Positions 23,643 through 32,381 of a stretch of DNA of 32,381 nucleotides are shown here, piece after piece. The notes under the pieces are model-generated. The model had not been told where the DNA came from and made no database searches. It saw only the letters and a program-made list of their open reading frames with translations. Within the stretch, counting starts at the first letter, position 1, and each line of letters starts with the position of its first letter. A program made the position numbers and the translations under genes. This DNA comes from Caldisericia bacterium. GTDB taxonomy: Bacteria > Caldisericota > Caldisericia > B22-G15. The DNA is taken from assembly GCA_026414995.1 (NCBI GenBank), contig JAOAHY010000011.1, positions 1 to 32,381 of the forward strand, in the 5' to 3' direction.

Positions 23643-24740
23643 ATGAAAAAAATTCCACTTCATTCTTTTCATGAGAAGCAAGGCGCTAAATTTGTAGAAT
23701 TTGCAGGTTTTATAATGCCAATTTATTATACATCAATTAAAGATGAGCATATAGCAGTAAGAGAAAGAGTTGGAGTTTTTGATGTTTCACACATGGGAGA
23801 AATTAGAATAAAGGGAAAAGATGCAAAGCGCTTTGCAGATTTTATTTTGACAAATGATATATTAAATACAAAATTTAAAGATGTAAAATACACAGTTATG
23901 TTAAATGAAAATGGGGGAATTGTAGATGATCTTTTTTCTTATACTTTTTCAGATGAAGATATTCTTTTAGTTATAAATGCAGCAAATATAGAAAAAGATT
24001 TTAATCATATTAAAAAATATTTATGGAGTGGACTTGAAATATATAATGAATCTCAGGATATTGTTGAATTAGCAGTTCAAGGACCAAAAGCAGAAGAGCT
24101 ACTTCAAAATTTCACTAATTTTAATCTTCAAAATATAAAATATTTCAATTTCGATATGATTGAAATTTTCGGTGAAAAGTTATTAATCTCAAGAACCGGA
24201 TATACTGGTGAAGATGGTTTTGAAATTTATATGGATAAAAATTTAGGCGAGAAAGTAATAACTCAAATTTTAGAAAAAGGAAAAGATTTTGATATAAGAA
24301 TTTGTGGACTTGGAGCAAGAGATACTTTAAGATTTGAAGTATGCTATTGGCTTTATGGAAATGATATCGATGAGAGTATAAATCCAATTGAGTCAGGTCA
24401 AAAGTTTCTAGTTAATATGAACAAAGAAAAATTTATTGGAAAAGAAGCAATTCAAAAAATTCTTGAAGAAGGTGTTAAAAGAAAATTTATTGGAATTGAA
24501 GTAGAAGGTGGTATTGCAAGACATGGAAATAAAATTTTTAATAAAGAAAATAATGAGATTGGATTTATAACAAGTGGTAATTTTTCTTTTATTTTAAATA
24601 AATCTCTTGCATTGGGTTATGTTAATCTTCCTCATGGCGAGATTGGAGAAGAGGTTATAATTTCTGATGGTAAAAGATATCTATCTGGTAAAATAGTTAA
24701 AAAACCATTTTTAAAACCAAGAGTAAAAAAGGAGGGATAG
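23643..24740 (+). CDS. gcvT: Glycine cleavage system T protein (aminomethyltransferase)
   Basis: Transfers the methylene group from aminomethyl-lipoyl H protein to tetrahydrofolate and releases ammonia. The 365-residue length and conserved blocks fit: PLHSFHEKQGAKFVEFAGFIMPI, VFDVSHMGEIRIKG, NENGGIVDDLF, RTGYTGEDGFEIYM, and the C-terminal barrel domain. Only a weak purine-rich stretch precedes the ATG, and no separate promoter is obvious in the 59-bp gap to porB. No glycine riboswitch is present, as there is no room for one. It heads a seven-gene string that ends with lipoyl assembly genes. Confidence 0.95.
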   Translation: MKKIPLHSFHEKQGAKFVEFAGFIMPIYYTSIKDEHIAVRERVGVFDVSHMGEIRIKGKDAKRFADFILTNDILNTKFKDVKYTVMLNENGGIVDDLFSYTFSDEDILLVINAANIEKDFNHIKKYLWSGLEIYNESQDIVELAVQGPKAEELLQNFTNFNLQNIKYFNFDMIEIFGEKLLISRTGYTGEDGFEIYMDKNLGEKVITQILEKGKDFDIRICGLGARDTLRFEVCYWLYGNDIDESINPIESGQKFLVNMNKEKFIGKEAIQKILEEGVKRKFIGIEVEGGIARHGNKIFNKENNEIGFITSGNFSFILNKSLALGYVNLPHGEIGEEVIISDGKRYLSGKIVKKPFLKPRVKKEG

Positions 24741-24741
24741 A

Positions 24742-25125
24742 ATGAGTAAAGTTTTAGAAAATTTATATTATGCTGAAACAGATGAATGGTTAAAAGTTGA
24801 GGGGGATATTGGAATAGTTGGTATTACAGATTATGCACAAGATAAACTTGGAGATATAGTTTTTTTAGAAGAAGCTAATGTTGGAAAAAAAGTAAGAAAA
24901 GGAGATATAGTTATTTCAATTGAATCTGTAAAAGCAGCAGCAGAAATTCACTCTCCAGTTTCTGGTGAAATAATAGAGGTTAATAAAGAGGTAATTAAAA
25001 ATCCTCAAATTATTAATGAGGATCCATATGGTAAGGGGTGGCTTTTTAAAATTAAAATCGAAAATTTAGAAGAGATAAAAAGTTTAATGGACGCAAAAGG
25101 TTATTCTGCATATAGAGAAGAATAA
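24742..25125 (+). CDS. gcvH: Glycine cleavage system H protein
   Basis: The lipoyl carrier of the glycine cleavage system, 127 residues. The lipoylation site is Lys64 within SIESVKAAAEIHSPVSGEI, preceded by the GDIVFLEEANVG strand and followed by the NEDPYGKGWLFKI block. It shuttles the aminomethyl group between P and T proteins and is reoxidised by the L protein (not in the window). AGGAGG lies just before the ATG, and gcvT ends one base upstream. It is the presumed target of the three lipoyl assembly genes at the end of this operon. Confidence 0.97.
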   Translation: MSKVLENLYYAETDEWLKVEGDIGIVGITDYAQDKLGDIVFLEEANVGKKVRKGDIVISIESVKAAAEIHSPVSGEIIEVNKEVIKNPQIINEDPYGKGWLFKIKIENLEEIKSLMDAKGYSAYREE

Positions 25126-26457
25126 ATGAGATTTATACCTCATACAAATAAAGATATTGAAGAGATGCTTAAAGAGATTGGAATATCTTCAATTGATGAA
25201 CTTTTTGAAGATATTCCAGAAGAAGTTAAATTAAAGAAAGACCTTAATCTTCCACCACCTCTTGATGAGTTAAAACTTAAGGAAGAAATAGAAGATATCT
25301 TTTCATTGAATTTAAAAGTTAAAAGAATTTTTCTAGGTGGAGGAGCTTACTTACATTTTATTCCATCAACTGTAAACTATGTTATATCCAGAGGAGAATT
25401 TTATACATCATATACTCCATATCAACCTGAGCTTTCACAAGGTATACTTCAAGCACTTTTTGAATTTCAATCAGTTCTTTCTGATTTAACACATGCAGAT
25501 GTTACAAATGCCTCAATGTATGATGGAGCAACATCTCTTGTTGAAGGAGTTTTAATGGCTGAGAGAATCAAAAAGAAAGGAAAAGTATTAATTTCAAAAA
25601 GCATAAATCCAGAATATAATGAAGTATTAAAAACATATCTTTTGCCAAGAGAAATTTTAATTGATTATGTTGATTTTGAAGAGAATGGAGAAATTTCTTT
25701 AGAAAAATTAAAAAATAAAATCAAAGAAGGTTATTCTTCTTTTGTTGTTCAAAGCCCAAATTATTTTGGAATTATTGAAAATTTATCTGAGATTGGAAAG
25801 ATAGTAAAGGAAAATGACACTCTTTTTATTTTAACAATAACTGAAGCAATATCTCTTGGAATGCTTAAACCTCCTTTTGATTATGGGATTGATATATTAG
25901 CAATGGAAGGACAATCTTTTGGTATCCCACTTTCTTATGGTGGACCATATTTAGGAATACTTCAGACAAAAAGAGAGTTTATAAGAGAAATTCCAGGAAG
26001 AATAATTGGTGAAACACAAGATAAAAATGGAAAAAGAGCATTTGTTATGACACTTAGAGCAAGAGAACAAGATATAAAAAGAGAAAAAGCAACTTCAAAT
26101 ATTTGTACAAATAATACTTTAAATGCAATTGCATCTTTAGTTTACCTTGTAACTTTAGGACCAAATGGGCTTAAAAAGATTGCTGAGATAAATTATAAAA
26201 AATCACATTATCTTGTAAAAAGATTAATTGATGAAGGATTTGAATTGAAATTTAATAATCCTAAGTTTTTCAATGAGTTTGTTTTAAAATTGAATATTCA
26301 ACCAATTAGATTAAAAGAGAAACTTTCTCTTGTGGGCATTGAAGGAGGGATTCCTTTAAGATATTTTGGTTTTGATGATTCATATCTTTTTACAGTTACT
26401 GAAATGAATTCAAGAGAGGATATTGAACTTCTTGTTTGTGCTTTAAAGGAGGGATAA
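25126..26457 (+). CDS. gcvPA: Glycine dehydrogenase (decarboxylating) subunit 1
   Basis: The N-terminal-type half of the split P protein, 443 residues, which with subunit 2 decarboxylates glycine and passes the aminomethyl group to lipoyl-H. Conserved features are FIPHTNKDIEEMLKEIG at the start, SYTPYQPELSQGILQALFEFQ, the DVTNASMYDGATS motif, and LRAREQDIKREKATSNICTN. This half keeps the PLP-enzyme fold but lacks the catalytic Lys, as is normal for the two-gene form. It follows gcvH without a gap and overlaps the next start by TAATG. Confidence 0.95.
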   Translation: MRFIPHTNKDIEEMLKEIGISSIDELFEDIPEEVKLKKDLNLPPPLDELKLKEEIEDIFSLNLKVKRIFLGGGAYLHFIPSTVNYVISRGEFYTSYTPYQPELSQGILQALFEFQSVLSDLTHADVTNASMYDGATSLVEGVLMAERIKKKGKVLISKSINPEYNEVLKTYLLPREILIDYVDFEENGEISLEKLKNKIKEGYSSFVVQSPNYFGIIENLSEIGKIVKENDTLFILTITEAISLGMLKPPFDYGIDILAMEGQSFGIPLSYGGPYLGILQTKREFIREIPGRIIGETQDKNGKRAFVMTLRAREQDIKREKATSNICTNNTLNAIASLVYLVTLGPNGLKKIAEINYKKSHYLVKRLIDEGFELKFNNPKFFNEFVLKLNIQPIRLKEKLSLVGIEGGIPLRYFGFDDSYLFTVTEMNSREDIELLVCALKEG

Positions 26458-27878
26458 TGAAAACTTTAAAAGAACTTTCAAAACATGGAAGTAATAAATT
26501 TAATATAGAAGATGATTTAGATTTTTTTGAAGTTGAAAAATTAGAAAATGAATATTTAAGGGAAGAAGTAGAAATTCCTGATATATCAGAAATAAATTTA
26601 ATAAGGCATTTTATAAATCTCTCAAAACTCAACTATGGTGTTGATGTAAACTTTTATCCATTAGGTTCATGCACTATGAAATATAATCCAAAGATAAATG
26701 AAGATATTGCAAAAAAGGAGGATTTTTACTACCTTCATCCACTTTTATCAACTGAATATACACAAGGGATACTTAAAATATTATGGGAGATGCAAGAATT
26801 TTTAAAAGAGATAACAGGAATGGATGGTTTCACTCTTCAACCAGCTGCTGGTGCCCATGGAGAGTACACTGGTCTTAGAATTATGTGGGAATATTTTAAA
26901 GATAAGAAAGAAAGAAGAAATAAAGTAATACTTCCTGACTCTGCTCATGGAACAAACCCTGCATCATCTTCAATGTTAGGACTCGAGGTAATTGAAATAC
27001 AATCAAAAGATGGAATGGTTGATCCAGATAAATTAAAAGATGTAGTTGATGAAAAAACTTTTGCTTTGATGTTAACTAATCCAAATACTTTAGGATTTTT
27101 CGAAAAAGATATTTTAAAAATTAGTGAAATATTGAAGAGTAAAGGTGCTCTTCTTTATTATGATGGTGCAAATTTAAATGGTTTTATTGGAATTGCAAGA
27201 CCAGGGGACATGGGTTTTGATTGCGTACATTTGAACCTTCATAAAACTTTTTCAACTCCTCATGGTGGTGGTGGTCCTGGAAGTGGACCAGTTGGTGTAA
27301 AAGATTTTTTAGTAAAATATTTACCATATCCAGTTATTGAAAAAAGTGAAGATGATTTCTTTTATTTTTCAAAACCTGAAAGAACAATTGGAAAAGTTAG
27401 AAGTTTCTTTGGAAACTTCTCTGTCATTTTAAAGGCATACTTATATATAAGAGAACTTGGAAGTGAAGGTTTAAAAGAAGTTGCTCAACTTTCTGTTTTA
27501 AATGCAAACTATATTAAGGAGAAACTAAAAAAATATTACCCATCACAATTTGATAGAGTTGTAAAACATGAATGTGTCTTATCTGGAAAGATCTATAAAG
27601 AGTATGGTGTAAAAACTTTAGATATAGCAAAGAGATTAATGGATTATGGTTTCCATCCTCCAACAATCTATTTCCCACATATAGTTGATGAAGCACTAAT
27701 GATTGAACCAACAGAAACAGAAAGCAAAGAAACTCTTGATGAATTTATTGAAGTTATGATTAAAATTAGTGAGGAGATAAAGAAAAACCCAGAGTTAGTT
27801 AAAAATGCACCTCATACAACATACATTTCAAGACCTGATGAGGTGAAAGCAGCTAAGGAATTAAAAGTTAAGTGGTAG
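26457..27878 (+). CDS. gcvPB: Glycine dehydrogenase (decarboxylating) subunit 2
   Basis: The catalytic half of the split P protein, 473 residues. The PLP lysine is Lys263 in the HLNLHKTFSTPHGGGGPGSG block; GSCTMKYNPK, QPAAGAHGEYTG and DSAHGTNPAS are also present. ATG 26457 is preferred over an upstream ATG at 26436, which would add seven residues from inside gcvPA; AAGGAGGG lies a few bases before 26457. Its stop overlaps the GTG start of the first radical SAM gene, which links lipoyl assembly tightly to glycine cleavage. Confidence 0.96.
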   Translation: MKTLKELSKHGSNKFNIEDDLDFFEVEKLENEYLREEVEIPDISEINLIRHFINLSKLNYGVDVNFYPLGSCTMKYNPKINEDIAKKEDFYYLHPLLSTEYTQGILKILWEMQEFLKEITGMDGFTLQPAAGAHGEYTGLRIMWEYFKDKKERRNKVILPDSAHGTNPASSSMLGLEVIEIQSKDGMVDPDKLKDVVDEKTFALMLTNPNTLGFFEKDILKISEILKSKGALLYYDGANLNGFIGIARPGDMGFDCVHLNLHKTFSTPHGGGGPGSGPVGVKDFLVKYLPYPVIEKSEDDFFYFSKPERTIGKVRSFFGNFSVILKAYLYIRELGSEGLKEVAQLSVLNANYIKEKLKKYYPSQFDRVVKHECVLSGKIYKEYGVKTLDIAKRLMDYGFHPPTIYFPHIVDEALMIEPTETESKETLDEFIEVMIKISEEIKKNPELVKNAPHTTYISRPDEVKAAKELKVKW

Positions 27879-28684
27879 AAGAAAAAATTAAATTTTTTTA
27901 TCCAATAAAAACACTTCCTGTATCTTTAACTGGAGACATTTGTTCTTTAAATTGTCTTCATTGTAATTCTTTTTATCTAAAAGGAATGAAAACAAAAGAT
28001 GAATCACTGAGTTATCTTCAAAGTGAAGAATTTTCATCATTTTTGATATCTGGTGGATTTGATGAAAAAGGAAAACTAGATATTTTTTCAAATTTGGATT
28101 ATATAAAAAAAGTTAAGACAAGTGGCAAGAAGATAGTACTTCACCCAGGTTTTATAACAAAGGAAGAGATTGATGCTTTAAAAGGTTATATTGATGTTAT
28201 ATCTTTTGATTTTATATATGACGATGAGACAATAAAAGAGATTTACCATCTTGAATATAAAAAAGAGGATTTTAAAACTCAATATCTATTATTGAGAAGA
28301 AATATTAAAACTATTCCACACATTATTGTTGGACTTTATAAAGGAATAATAAAAGGTGAGTATGAAGCAATTGATGTTCTTGCAGAGTTAAAACCAAGTT
28401 TAATAATATTTCTTGTAATAGTTCCAACAAAAGAAACACCTTTTGAAAAAATAAATATTCCAGATATAGGCGAAATAAAAGAATTATTTATGAAAGCAAA
28501 AAGAAAGTTAAGATTAACTAAATTTCATCTTGGTTGTATGGTTCCAAAAGGTGAGATAAAAGATGAAATTGAGTTAGCAGCATTTGAAAGTGGGTTTATA
28601 GGTTTTGTAAATCCTCAAAATAAATTAAAAAACTTGGTTAAAGACCCTGAAGTTTATTATGAATGCGATGCTCTCTACTATTAG
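27872..28684 (+). CDS. Radical SAM protein, split lipoyl synthase (LipS-type) candidate 1
   Basis: A 270-residue radical SAM protein. The cluster motif is CSLNCLHC (Cys24, Cys28, Cys31) after VSLTGDI; Cys222 (FHLGCMVPKG) and Cys265 (YYECDALYY) are the only other cysteines and may help bind a second cluster. It resembles the archaeal and bacterial LipS1/LipS2 proteins, biotin-synthase-like enzymes that together insert the two sulfur atoms into octanoyl-H protein. Which of the two this is cannot be settled by eye. It starts with GTG at 27872 inside the end of gcvPB, and the next radical SAM gene overlaps its 3' end. No LipA-type gene is seen. Confidence 0.75.
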   Translation: MVEEKIKFFYPIKTLPVSLTGDICSLNCLHCNSFYLKGMKTKDESLSYLQSEEFSSFLISGGFDEKGKLDIFSNLDYIKKVKTSGKKIVLHPGFITKEEIDALKGYIDVISFDFIYDDETIKEIYHLEYKKEDFKTQYLLLRRNIKTIPHIIVGLYKGIIKGEYEAIDVLAELKPSLIIFLVIVPTKETPFEKINIPDIGEIKELFMKAKRKLRLTKFHLGCMVPKGEIKDEIELAAFESGFIGFVNPQNKLKNLVKDPEVYYECDALYY

Positions 28685-29615
28685 AGTATCTCTTGGTAGC
28701 ACCTCTGTTTTAGAATTTAAGAAACTTAAATATGATTTTGAAATTAAGACAATATATCTTCTCCTTTCAGGAAAATGCACAAAAGATTGTAAATATTGCA
28801 CGCAAGCAAAAAGTTCAAAATCAGATGAAAAATATTTATCAAGAGTTGTTTGGCCTGAATATGATTTAGATGAAACTCTTGAAAAAATTTTAGAAAAAAA
28901 AGAAGAAATTGGAAGGGTTTGTATTCAAACAGTTAATAATAAATATACAAAAGAGACTATTTTTAAAATATTAAATAAATTAGGCAAAGAGATAAAAGTT
29001 TCAATCTCCATTAACACATCAAATTTGAAATTAGTTGAAGAGCTTTTTAATCTTAATGCTGATAAAGTTGGACTTCCAATTGATGTTGCAAATTCATACC
29101 TTTATAAAAATTTAAGAGGAGGGGACTTTTATAAAAAGGTTAATTTTATTTTAAATGCAAATAAAATTTTTAAAAACAAAATTTCAACTCACATTATTGT
29201 TGGTTTAGGAGAATCTGATAAGGATATATTAAATCTATATAAAATTTTTATCGATAATGGAATAATAGTTGCACTTTTCTCATTTACTCCAATTGAAGGA
29301 ACACTTTGTGAAAGAATATCTCCCCCCTCTTTATTAAGATATAGAAAGATTCAAATTGCAACCAAATTAATAGAAAAAGGATTTTCTATTTCTCAATTTG
29401 AATTTGATGAAGAGAATTATTTAAAAAGAATTCCTGAAATTTCCATTGATTTATTAAAAGATTTAAATCCATTTATAACTAGAGGTTGTCCTTTTTGTAC
29501 AAGACCATATTATAATGAAAGACCAAAAGGAGATCTATATAATTATCCATATCCTTTAACTGATAAAGATTTTAAAAAAGAATTTGAATTTTTAAAAACT
29601 AATAAAGTTTTATGA
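28668..29615 (+). CDS. Radical SAM protein, split lipoyl synthase (LipS-type) candidate 2
   Basis: A biotin-synthase-like radical SAM protein, 315 residues from the ATG at 28668 (an ATG at 28659 is possible; neither has a good ribosome binding site). The cluster motif is GKCTKDCKYCTQA. The C-terminal RGCPFCTRPYYNERPKG, with a CxxC pair, is characteristic of this group and probably helps bind an auxiliary [4Fe-4S] cluster that donates sulfur. Two isolated Cys (in GRVCIQ and GTLCERI) are further candidates. Pairing with the preceding gene matches the LipS1/LipS2 system, in which one enzyme adds sulfur at C8 and the other at C6. A CCCCCC run lies at 29322-29327. Confidence 0.78.
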   Translation: MLSTIRVSLGSTSVLEFKKLKYDFEIKTIYLLLSGKCTKDCKYCTQAKSSKSDEKYLSRVVWPEYDLDETLEKILEKKEEIGRVCIQTVNNKYTKETIFKILNKLGKEIKVSISINTSNLKLVEELFNLNADKVGLPIDVANSYLYKNLRGGDFYKKVNFILNANKIFKNKISTHIIVGLGESDKDILNLYKIFIDNGIIVALFSFTPIEGTLCERISPPSLLRYRKIQIATKLIEKGFSISQFEFDEENYLKRIPEISIDLLKDLNPFITRGCPFCTRPYYNERPKGDLYNYPYPLTDKDFKKEFEFLKTNKVL

Positions 29616-30379
29616 GTTTTAAATTAATAATTTTAAAGTATAAAAAACTTAATCCATACTTAAATATGGCAATAGATGAAGCAAATCTCCTTTATGGAAA
29701 TAAAGATGAGATTATTTTAAGATTTTTTGGATGGGAGCCATACTCTGTTTCAATAGGAACTTTTCAAAAAATTGAAGAAATTAATATAGATTTTTTGAAA
29801 GAAAATAAAATTCCATTAGTTCGAAGACCTACAGGTGGAAAAGGAGTATATCATGAGAATGAACTTACATATTCAATTGTTATTCCAAAAAACCACCCTT
29901 TATATGAGCTAAGCATAATTGAATCTTATAAAGAAATTTCTAAAGTTTTTATCTTTTCTTTAATCGAGTTTGGAATAAAAGGAGAATTGACTAAAAAAAG
30001 TGGTGAAATAGATGGGTTTTGTTTTTCTTCTTTAAACTATTATGAAGTTTCAGTTAATGGTAAAAAAATAATTGGATCAGCTCAAAGAAGAAAAAAAGAG
30101 GGTCTTCTTCAACAAGGTTCAATTCCTATTGAAATTGATTATGAAAAAGTAAAAAATATTTTTTATTTAGAAGATACAAGTAAATTCACTTCGTTAAAAG
30201 AATTAAATAAATCAATCGAAATTGATATATTAGAAGAAGTTTTAATTAAAAATTTTATTAATTTTTTCTCTCTACCTTATGAAATAATAGAACAAAATAA
30301 TGATAAAATTTCTATAGGTTTTGATTTATTTAAAAATAAATACTCATTAGAATCTTGGAACTATAGAGGAGTTTATTAA
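29612..30379 (+). CDS. LipM-like octanoyltransferase / lipoate-protein ligase family
   Basis: A 255-residue member of the biotinyl/lipoyl transferase fold. Key blocks are VRRPTGGKGVYHENELTYS (residues 70-88), FCFSSLNYYEVSVNGKKIIGSAQ with Cys137 and Lys152, and LLQQGSIPI. The Cys to Lys spacing of 15 and the CFxxxxxYE context resemble LipM of Bacillus subtilis, which moves octanoate from ACP to H protein through a thioester on that Cys. The accessory domain of LplA ligases is absent. Octanoyl loading before the LipS pair is therefore the best reading; a short sLpl-type ligase is the alternative. It begins at ATGA and ends overlapping the dnaB stop. Confidence 0.8.
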   Translation: MSFKLIILKYKKLNPYLNMAIDEANLLYGNKDEIILRFFGWEPYSVSIGTFQKIEEINIDFLKENKIPLVRRPTGGKGVYHENELTYSIVIPKNHPLYELSIIESYKEISKVFIFSLIEFGIKGELTKKSGEIDGFCFSSLNYYEVSVNGKKIIGSAQRRKKEGLLQQGSIPIEIDYEKVKNIFYLEDTSKFTSLKELNKSIEIDILEEVLIKNFINFFSLPYEIIEQNNDKISIGFDLFKNKYSLESWNYRGVY

Positions 30380-32381
30380 AAAGGTACTTCTTCTCCTTTT
30401 TCTTCTTCTCTATACTCAATTTCTGTGAATTTTGCATAATTTTTCAAGAATTTTAATTTAAGTTTACCTAAAGGCCCATTTCTGTTTTTTGCAACAATTA
30501 ATTCAACAATTGAATGCTCTTTTCCAATATCATCATCTTCCTTATTTAAAAACATAACAACATCTGCATCTTGCTCAATACTATTATGAACAAAAATGTT
30601 ATTTGCTATAAAGTTATGTGTTTCTTCAACTGTAACATCATAAACTTCATCTTCATAAAGTTCTATTATTTCTTTTACTCTATCCCAATAAATATCTGAT
30701 TGAGATAAATTATTTAATTTTTCACTATTTAATATTTCTGCATATTTATTTAATCTGTGTCTACTTAAATTATTTTCAAAAATTGAACCTGAATAAGAAA
30801 CTCCTAATAATTTTGAAATATTCCTCCATGAATAATTTATTTTATCTTTTTCATATTTAATTAAATTCCATACTGTTTTTGGAATTATATCATTATTTGG
30901 ATTTTCTTTTTTCTTTTTTATTAATTTTATTAATTCAAAAATTTTATTTCCTTTTGCTCCATATGAACCAATCAAATTAAGAAATTTTAATTGATTCTCT
31001 TTTCCCTGTATTTCCAATACCCAATTTGTCCTATAATTATTTTTCTTTTTGCCTCTTATTGTTGAAATAATACCTAATCTTAATAACAAATATTGAATTT
31101 GAGTTATCAATTTTTTGCTTGATGAAGAGTAATAAATTGAAATACTTTCCTTACCTGTTTTAGTTTTTACATATGAAATATTTCCATCAGTAGACCAAAG
31201 ATGCTTTAAAAAAGTACATATTTTTTTATCAGTCAAATTCATAAAAGAATCGGGTAATTCTTTCTCAAAAGATTTAGCAAGTTTTAAATCATTTTTAATA
31301 AGCCAGTCAACAAAAGGATGGTGTCTATTTTTTGTTAAATTATAAGGTGATGGTAAATAAATATGATACCAATTTTTCTGTTTAATAATTTTTGGATTAA
31401 TATTAAATAAATTTTTTGCTATCTTTTCAACAATTTTCAAATTTTCTTCATCACTACTAGTATAGTGTATTGGTTGTTTAGGAGCATAACAACCATCTCC
31501 AATCATATGTGCAAAAAATATTATTTCTTCATCAGAATACCTTTCTTTTCCCTCAAGTTTTATAATTCTTGGCACTGCAATATGTTCGTTTATTTTTAAT
31601 TGATCTAATCTTTTCCAGCCTTCAAATGTTAAAAATGGATGATTCGCTGAGGCTTTAATTTCTCTTCCACTAAATGTTCTTAATAAATAAACTTTTTTAA
31701 TTCCGCTTGAAAATGCTTTTATGAGATTTGCATTTTTTATTTTTAAACTTTTTTCATCAAGTGAAAGTATAGGAATAGGTAATTTAATTTTTCCATCAAC
31801 TAAATCTTTTAGTTTTATTAATTCACCTGTATCTCCTCTTATAAGAATTGTATCCCCAGTTAGACAGCCGCTCTCTCTTAAATCTGAGAGTAATGGGCGT
31901 TTATTTTCTCTTTTTTCAATCGCCCTAGATAGTTGTGAAATAACTAAAACAGGAATTTCAAGTTCTCTCGCAAGTTTTTTTAAACTTCTTGTTAATTCTG
32001 AAATTTCTTGTACTCTATTTTCTACTTTTGTTTTTAAATGCATCAACTGAAGATAATCAATAACAACCATTCCAAGATTATGTTGATTTTTGAGTCTTCT
32101 TGCTTTAGTTCTTATTTCAAGAATTGAAATATCAGATGAATCATCTATATATATTGGTGCATCATAAAGTGGTCCATATGCTCTTCCAAGTTTTACCCAA
32201 TCTTCATCTGAAAGCATACTAGTTTTTAATTTATGAAAGTTAACATTTGCAGTAGATTCAAGAATTCTCTCAACAATTTGCTCTTTTGACATTTCAAGAG
32301 AGAAAATGGCAACAGGAACCTTTTCTTTTAAAGCAATATTCACACAAATATTTATTGAAAGAGAAGTTTTTCCAAGAGAGG
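30376..32381 (-). CDS. dnaB: Replicative DNA helicase DnaB, 5' partial, with intein
   Basis: The C-terminal RecA-like domain of DnaB, the hexameric helicase of the replication fork. The reading frame runs off the window edge, so the N-terminal domain is missing. The first visible residues are the Walker A tail SLGKTSLS. After it come PVAIFSLEMSKEQIVERIL, Walker B GMVVIDYLQLM, and VISQLSRAIEKRENKRPLLSDLRESG. The intein follows, and then the extein resumes with SIEQDADVVMFLNKED and AKNRNGPLGKLKLKF. A GTG at 32343 is internal to the frame and is not the real start. The stop codon overlaps that of the convergent octanoyltransferase gene. Confidence 0.95.
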   Translation of the reverse strand, partial: SLGKTSLSINICVNIALKEKVPVAIFSLEMSKEQIVERILESTANVNFHKLKTSMLSDEDWVKLGRAYGPLYDAPIYIDDSSDISILEIRTKARRLKNQHNLGMVVIDYLQLMHLKTKVENRVQEISELTRSLKKLARELEIPVLVISQLSRAIEKRENKRPLLSDLRESGCLTGDTILIRGDTGELIKLKDLVDGKIKLPIPILSLDEKSLKIKNANLIKAFSSGIKKVYLLRTFSGREIKASANHPFLTFEGWKRLDQLKINEHIAVPRIIKLEGKERYSDEEIIFFAHMIGDGCYAPKQPIHYTSSDEENLKIVEKIAKNLFNINPKIIKQKNWYHIYLPSPYNLTKNRHHPFVDWLIKNDLKLAKSFEKELPDSFMNLTDKKICTFLKHLWSTDGNISYVKTKTGKESISIYYSSSSKKLITQIQYLLLRLGIISTIRGKKKNNYRTNWVLEIQGKENQLKFLNLIGSYGAKGNKIFELIKLIKKKKENPNNDIIPKTVWNLIKYEKDKINYSWRNISKLLGVSYSGSIFENNLSRHRLNKYAEILNSEKLNNLSQSDIYWDRVKEIIELYEDEVYDVTVEETHNFIANNIFVHNSIEQDADVVMFLNKEDDDIGKEHSIVELIVAKNRNGPLGKLKLKFLKNYAKFTEIEYREEEKGEEVPF
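30583..31866 (-). mobile_element. DnaB intein with LAGLIDADG homing endonuclease
   Basis: A 428-residue in-frame insertion. It begins at Cys1 (CLTGDTIL) after RESG and ends at His427-Asn428 (NIFVHN) before the Ser of SIEQDADVV. Splicing blocks are seen: A at the N-terminus, B (SANHPFLTF, about 73-81, Ser in place of the usual Thr), F (DEVYDVTVEETHNFIA, 406-421) and G. Endonuclease motifs are FFAHMIGDGCY (about 117-127, Asp124) and FLKHLWSTDGNI (about 219-230, Asp227), both acidic residues intact. A helix-turn-helix-like stretch (about 343-386) precedes block F. The site is the same as that of the Synechocystis DnaB intein. It appears able to splice, and possibly to home. Confidence 0.93.

Follow-up and report, generated by a model that had tools for sequence, protein, structure and literature searches.

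The locus raises the question of which enzyme supplies octanoylated protein to a LipS1/LipS2 lipoyl synthase pair encoded at the end of a glycine cleavage operon of a Caldisericia bacterium. In the window (the whole stretch of DNA that was analysed, 32,381 nucleotides of contig JAOAHY010000011.1) the reading frames give the order gcvT-gcvH-gcvPA-gcvPB-lipS1-lipS2-lipM, with lipM as the terminal gene (Table 1), and the lipM start and the lipS2 stop share 4 bp (ATGA). The gcvPB reading frame is listed from a TTG codon and its true start may be internal. The terminal gene very probably encodes LipM, that is, a Cys-type transferase that would pass octanoyl groups from octanoyl-ACP to GcvH for sulfur insertion by LipS1/LipS2.

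Table 1. Features of the gcv-lipS-lipM operon in the window.
Feature	Position	Strand	Remarks
gcvT	23643..24740	+	profile matches
gcvH, lipoyl acceptor H protein, likely substrate	24742..25125	+	PF01597, TIGR00527 over cut-off
gcvPA	25126..26457	+	NF001696 554 bits vs cut-off 364
gcvPB	26436..27878	+	NF003346 690.9 bits vs cut-off 441
lipS1, lipoyl synthase subunit	27872..28684	+	NF053742 253.5 bits vs cut-off 230
lipS2, radical SAM lipoyl synthase subunit	28659..29615	+	NF053743 323.6 bits vs cut-off 270
lipM-like, putative octanoyltransferase	29612..30379	+	255 aa; Cys137 predicted nucleophile, Lys152 conserved, LplB domain absent

An earlier note on this DNA had placed Cys137 in a CFxxxxxYE context 15 residues before Lys152 and had described the LplA accessory domain as missing. 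Both statements were borne out: the reading frame and the alignment give CFSSLNYYE with Lys152 at +15 residues, and Pfam finds only the catalytic domain of the LplA/LipB family (PF21948 116.6 bits, cut-off 27; PF03099 65.4 bits, cut-off 21), with no match in this protein to the LplB accessory domain Lip_prot_lig_C (PF10437). Cys137 is taken by us to be the equivalent of Cys150 in B. subtilis LipM; a look for the LipM Cys number in the literature yielded no useful result. The protein scored 57.7 bits against the LplAB model NF053751 (cut-off 550), a narrow model that was over its cut-off in 0/249 genomes searched, and for the LipL models it reached 19.1 bits vs a cut-off of 450 (NF047857) or was unmatched at E 0.001 (NF053589). 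The AlphaFold model (pLDDT 94.7, pTM 0.91) had LplA of T. acidophilum as its top PDB match (Z 30.1, rmsd 2.3, 242 residues aligned). The nearest solved fold is that of an ATP-dependent ligase, which counts against the LipM reading. This match of a predicted structure gives the fold of the family and not the reaction, ligase and transferase being inseparable by fold, and the missing LipM entry in the structure search carries no evidential weight. An LplA annotation based on the top PDB match alone was rejected.

The Cys and the Lys were kept in 29/29 other LipM-like loci when the residues were checked. Cys137, Lys152, Gly155 and Ser156 were invariant in 15/15 LipM-like proteins (alignment A2) and in 28/28 rows of alignment A4 (the window protein and 27 lipS2-adjacent proteins from named organisms), where the rows were picked as Cys-type and the Cys invariance is not independent. 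All five Lpl-type rows of the 20-row alignment A1 were without the Cys loop and had the Lys. The Cys loop (residues 128-146) was removed before the phylogeny was built (66 rows, 246 columns), so that the trait itself does not build the tree. The rows included those from 23/38 Cys-type and 7/10 non-Cys loci of the LipS2 survey described below and from 17 LipM-like proteins in addition to the window; L065 was left out as its sequence is identical to that of the included L005. One clade comprised all 41 Cys-type rows (ultrafast bootstrap 100, SH-aLRT 96) with the Lpl-type ligases outside, and it included a group of 15 rows from the class of the window (96/90) and three long-branch rows from LipA genomes with no LipS2 over the cut-off. 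The presence of the Cys needed 1 change over the 66 rows vs a mean of about 20 changes after shuffling. Given the conservation of Cys and Lys at the other loci and the single change on the tree, the residue is more than a chance occurrence; chance as an explanation of Cys137 was rejected, the Cys being invariant throughout the family.

The phylogeny proposed as a check in the earlier note was obtained in part, in that the Cys clade stands apart from the Lpl-type ligases in a tree that omits characterised LipM, LipB, sulfur-oxidizer sLpl(AB) and any over-cut-off LipL row. The window protein is placed with LipM-like proteins, characterised LipM not being among the rows. A search with NF053751 around L067 for sulfur-oxidizer sLpl(AB) to be used in the tree gave 0/249 genomes over the cut-off, and the ten loci that it brought up were left out of the tree. 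No Bacillus LipM was present among the matches listed (25 of 38 plasmid-collection records). L067 comes from a record titled Acetobacteraceae that is probably a misnamed MAG; its LipM groups with Bacillota rows.

The non-Cys rows closest to the clade in a quick tree were archaeal LplA encoded near lipS2, and the archaeal LipS-linked rows had no Cys loop. This neighbourhood is in line with the proposal of Tanabe et al. (2023, PMC10332631) that LipM arose from archaeal LplAB. Together with T. acidophilum LplA as the closest solved relative, it could also point to an ATP-dependent LplA-like catalytic subunit that acts alone or with a separate LplB and in which Cys137 is incidental. We regard this as highly improbable given that the Cys is invariant at all 29 loci and marks a single clade, and that the only LplB-like match of the genome lies within another, fused gene.

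The genome of the window has a single KAS II gene, which lies within a FAS II cluster whose ORFs were read as FabZ, FabD, FabG, ACP, FabF and an enoyl reductase-like protein (ACP, FabF and FabZ are over an NCBIfam cut-off; FabD, FabG and the enoyl reductase-like protein were read by eye only). As this cluster includes an ACP, octanoyl-ACP is a plausible donor. LipA models gave background radical-SAM scores only in this genome (at most 20.7 bits vs a cut-off of 310.25). Family membership, Cys/Lys conservation, the clade, the operon, FAS II and the lack of a LipA over the cut-off are all read from the sequence, whereas the catalytic steps and the identity of donor and acceptor are inferred. Octanoate from octanoyl-ACP would be bound to Cys137 as a thioester and positioned with the help of Lys152 and the conserved RRPTGG loop, and the octanoyl group would then be handed to the lipoyl lysine of GcvH from the same operon. 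LipS1 and LipS2 would insert two sulfurs on octanoyl-GcvH, and the glycine cleavage system would in this way gain its cofactor with no need for free octanoate or for activation by ATP. The Cys-type transferase with octanoyl-ACP as likely donor and LipS1/S2 as recipients of its product, as suggested in the earlier note, is thus consistent with the evidence from the protein sequence, the phylogeny, the operon and the FAS II genes.

Two other gene products of the genome count against the LipM reading and leave more than one possible acceptor and division of labour: a protein that resembles Lpl(AB) and an E2 that carries a lipoyl domain. Biotin_lipoyl matched two proteins, GcvH and this E2, the latter encoded together with E1 alpha and beta in one operon. 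The second homologue is a fused Lpl(AB)-like protein of 362 aa on contig C15 (L033:7205-8290) with PF21948 at 116.2 bits. Its weak match to Lip_prot_lig_C (21.0 bits vs 24; counted as a match, 24, when in-frame neighbours are included) is the sole LplB-like match of the genome. The best NCBIfam score of this protein was to the lipoate--protein ligase model TIGR00545 (174.6 vs a cut-off of 280). The fused gene is also found in G002 and G004, and a same-genus genome (L065/G003) instead carries a gene over the TIGR00545 cut-off (393 bits vs 280), so that a ligase is available within this family of genomes. As a guess, the fused protein might serve in salvage or in E2 loading. The pairing of the transferase with LipS enzymes instead of an sLpl(AB) ligase, as described in the earlier note, therefore holds for the operon and does not hold for the genome.

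A set of 61 genomes was searched, of which 44 belong to families f1-f4 and f6 of the class of the window. Among these 44, a LipM-like match (E ≤1e-17) was found in 38, LipS2 over the cut-off in 31 and both in 29, and LipA was over its cut-off in 0/44. Family f5 had neither LipM nor LipS2 in 5/5 genomes and LipA in 4/5. LipS2 occurred without LipM in two genomes that are both 55-56% complete (G047 and G048), and LipM without over-cut-off LipS2 in nine (G004, G030, G031, G033, G035, G038, G040, G043 and G046), with partial LipS2 matches in G004, G030 and G035. Two of these distributions count against the LipM reading: lipM adjoins lipS1/lipS2 in f1 only, with no LipS match near lipM in the other loci examined, and the f3 genomes G031, G033, G035, G043 and G046, all of them fragmented assemblies, have LipM and no LipS2 over the cut-off. 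In G031, G033, G043 and G046 both LipS2 and LipA were below the cut-off beside LipM, a pattern that reflects either assembly gaps or another sulfur-insertion enzyme.

The class survey also bears on the possibility that the fused Lpl(AB)-like protein loads free octanoate or lipoate as the true input of LipS1/S2, with LipM in a minor or redundant role. This is unlikely, although the fused gene with its PF21948 and weak Lip_prot_lig_C matches is present in G000 (the genome of the window), G002 and G004: its neighbours are DUF5714 and oxidoreductase-like genes, on a contig other than that of gcv/lipS, it stays below the TIGR00545 cut-off, and none of the 33 f2 + f3 genomes has a Lip_prot_lig_C over the cut-off, yet LipM is present in 28/33 of them.

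Outside the class, a LipS2 alignment against genome_contigs was used, in which the best 80 of at least 585 loci were kept and the sample leans towards this query. The pairing is common: a Cys-type gene was close or fused to lipS2 in 38 of the best 80 loci, a non-Cys homologue was present in 10 (most of them archaeal), and 32 had no homologue within the locus DNA, some of these being short contigs. LipS1 was found in 34 and gcv genes in 31 of the 38 Cys-type loci, and LipA was over the cut-off in 4/38 of the corresponding genomes, with a fifth just under it. In 15/38 of these genomes from the best 80 loci the Cys-type gene was the only PF21948 match, and LipA was over the cut-off in 0/15.

These last genomes are relevant to another scheme, a LipL-like relay in which the protein is an amidotransferase that takes octanoyl or lipoyl groups off GcvH and attaches them to an Aco/PDH-type E2, with GcvH loaded by another enzyme. 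In favour of a relay, the genome of the window encodes a possible acceptor, the E2 with its lipoyl domain, the loading of GcvH could fall to the fused Lpl(AB)-like protein, and LipL likewise belongs to the PF03099 family and has no LplB domain. The relay is nevertheless very unlikely, as the LipL models were far below the cut-off or unmatched and the gene belongs to the gcv-lipS operon and not to the E2 operon. In the 15/38 genomes with the Cys-type gene as sole PF21948 match, a further enzyme of this kind that could load GcvH was not found.

Three loci carried LipS2 followed by a Cys-type LipM in one ORF (L090:6974-8800, L136:6980-8749 and L137:5676-7721, from a Chloroflexota MAG, an unclassified bacterium and a Symbiobacterium MAG, respectively), and the L090 fusion was over the LipS2 cut-off. 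A tentative extension of the LipM reading is that LipM and LipS2 might form a physical unit that channels octanoyl-GcvH from transfer to sulfur insertion in Caldisericota, several Bacillota and Chloroflexota. We consider this possible rather than probable; it is testable given the three fusions and the cultured strains in which LipM is the only PF21948 match and no LipA is over the cut-off. The LipM-LipS1/S2 route looks like the only one in some anaerobes that are in culture, namely Tepidibacter thalassicus DSM 15285, T. formicigenes DSM 15518 and Faecalimicrobium dakarense FF1. Six loci from Clostridioides, Tepidibacter and other Peptostreptococcaceae (L085, L109, L091, L129, L116 and L124) had lipS1-lipS2-lipM and a nearby gcvH-like gene, and gcvT/gcvP were unmatched in these loci.

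The earlier note had proposed the combination as a hybrid de novo pathway. As a hybrid it is not new: LipM with LipS1/S2 was already inferred in section 8 of Tanabe et al. (2023, PMC10332631). According to that paper, some LipS1/S2 bacteria have no ligase gene, and lipM co-occurs with lipS1/S2 (in Schekmanbacteria, Synergistota and Thermotogota), which implies that LipS1/S2 insert sulfur into targets octanoylated by a transferase. The pairing is known and the window is a further instance, with a LipM-type octanoyltransferase, LipS1/LipS2 and the same inferred mechanism; it differs from the systems of that paper in belonging to Caldisericota, in its position within a gcv operon and in the extra fused Lpl(AB)-like gene of the genome. 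Among the places listed for a term search of the main text of the same paper (PMC10332631; 12 of 13), none names Caldisericota, Peptostreptococcaceae or a LipS2-LipM fusion. No literature on Caldisericota with lipoate was found, the available text of the Thermococcus LipS1/S2 paper (PMC9585515) has no mention of LipM, and the texts available to a literature search contained no assay of a LipM together with LipS1/S2. The present data add a phylum that the main text of Tanabe et al. does not name, an association across the class, fusions found in nature and strains in culture on which a test could be made. Operon, tree and survey support the route inferred in the literature, in which an ACP-dependent transferase would feed LipS1/S2 for de novo lipoylation.

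In B. subtilis, LipM acts as an octanoyltransferase from ACP to GcvH (PMC6067878), and the active-site Cys is on different loops in LipB and LipM (PMC7253636). Like the LipM of the B. subtilis LipM/LipA system, the window protein is predicted to be a single-domain Cys transferase that loads GcvH; unlike in that system, sulfur insertion is assigned to LipS1/S2 and not to LipA, and no LipL model was over the cut-off for this protein. The lipoyl synthase pair is the same as in the sLpl(AB)-LipS1/S2 systems of sulfur oxidizers and the archaeal LplAB-LipS1/S2 systems, whereas in both of these an ATP-dependent ligase that includes an LplB part serves as the input enzyme.

Some further features were noted in these genomes. 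On C15, the divergent fused Lpl(AB)-like gene lies directly 3' of a DUF5714 gene (L033:6553-8290), an arrangement conserved in G002, and its cluster contains ORFs that resemble a xanthine/CO dehydrogenase-type oxidoreductase, an odd setting for a lipoate ligase. At 30376-32343 on the minus strand of the window, close to the contig end, a DnaB helicase is split by an intein with a LAGLIDADG domain. G002 has a 451-aa ORF at the position that matches this DnaB, perhaps the gene without the intein.
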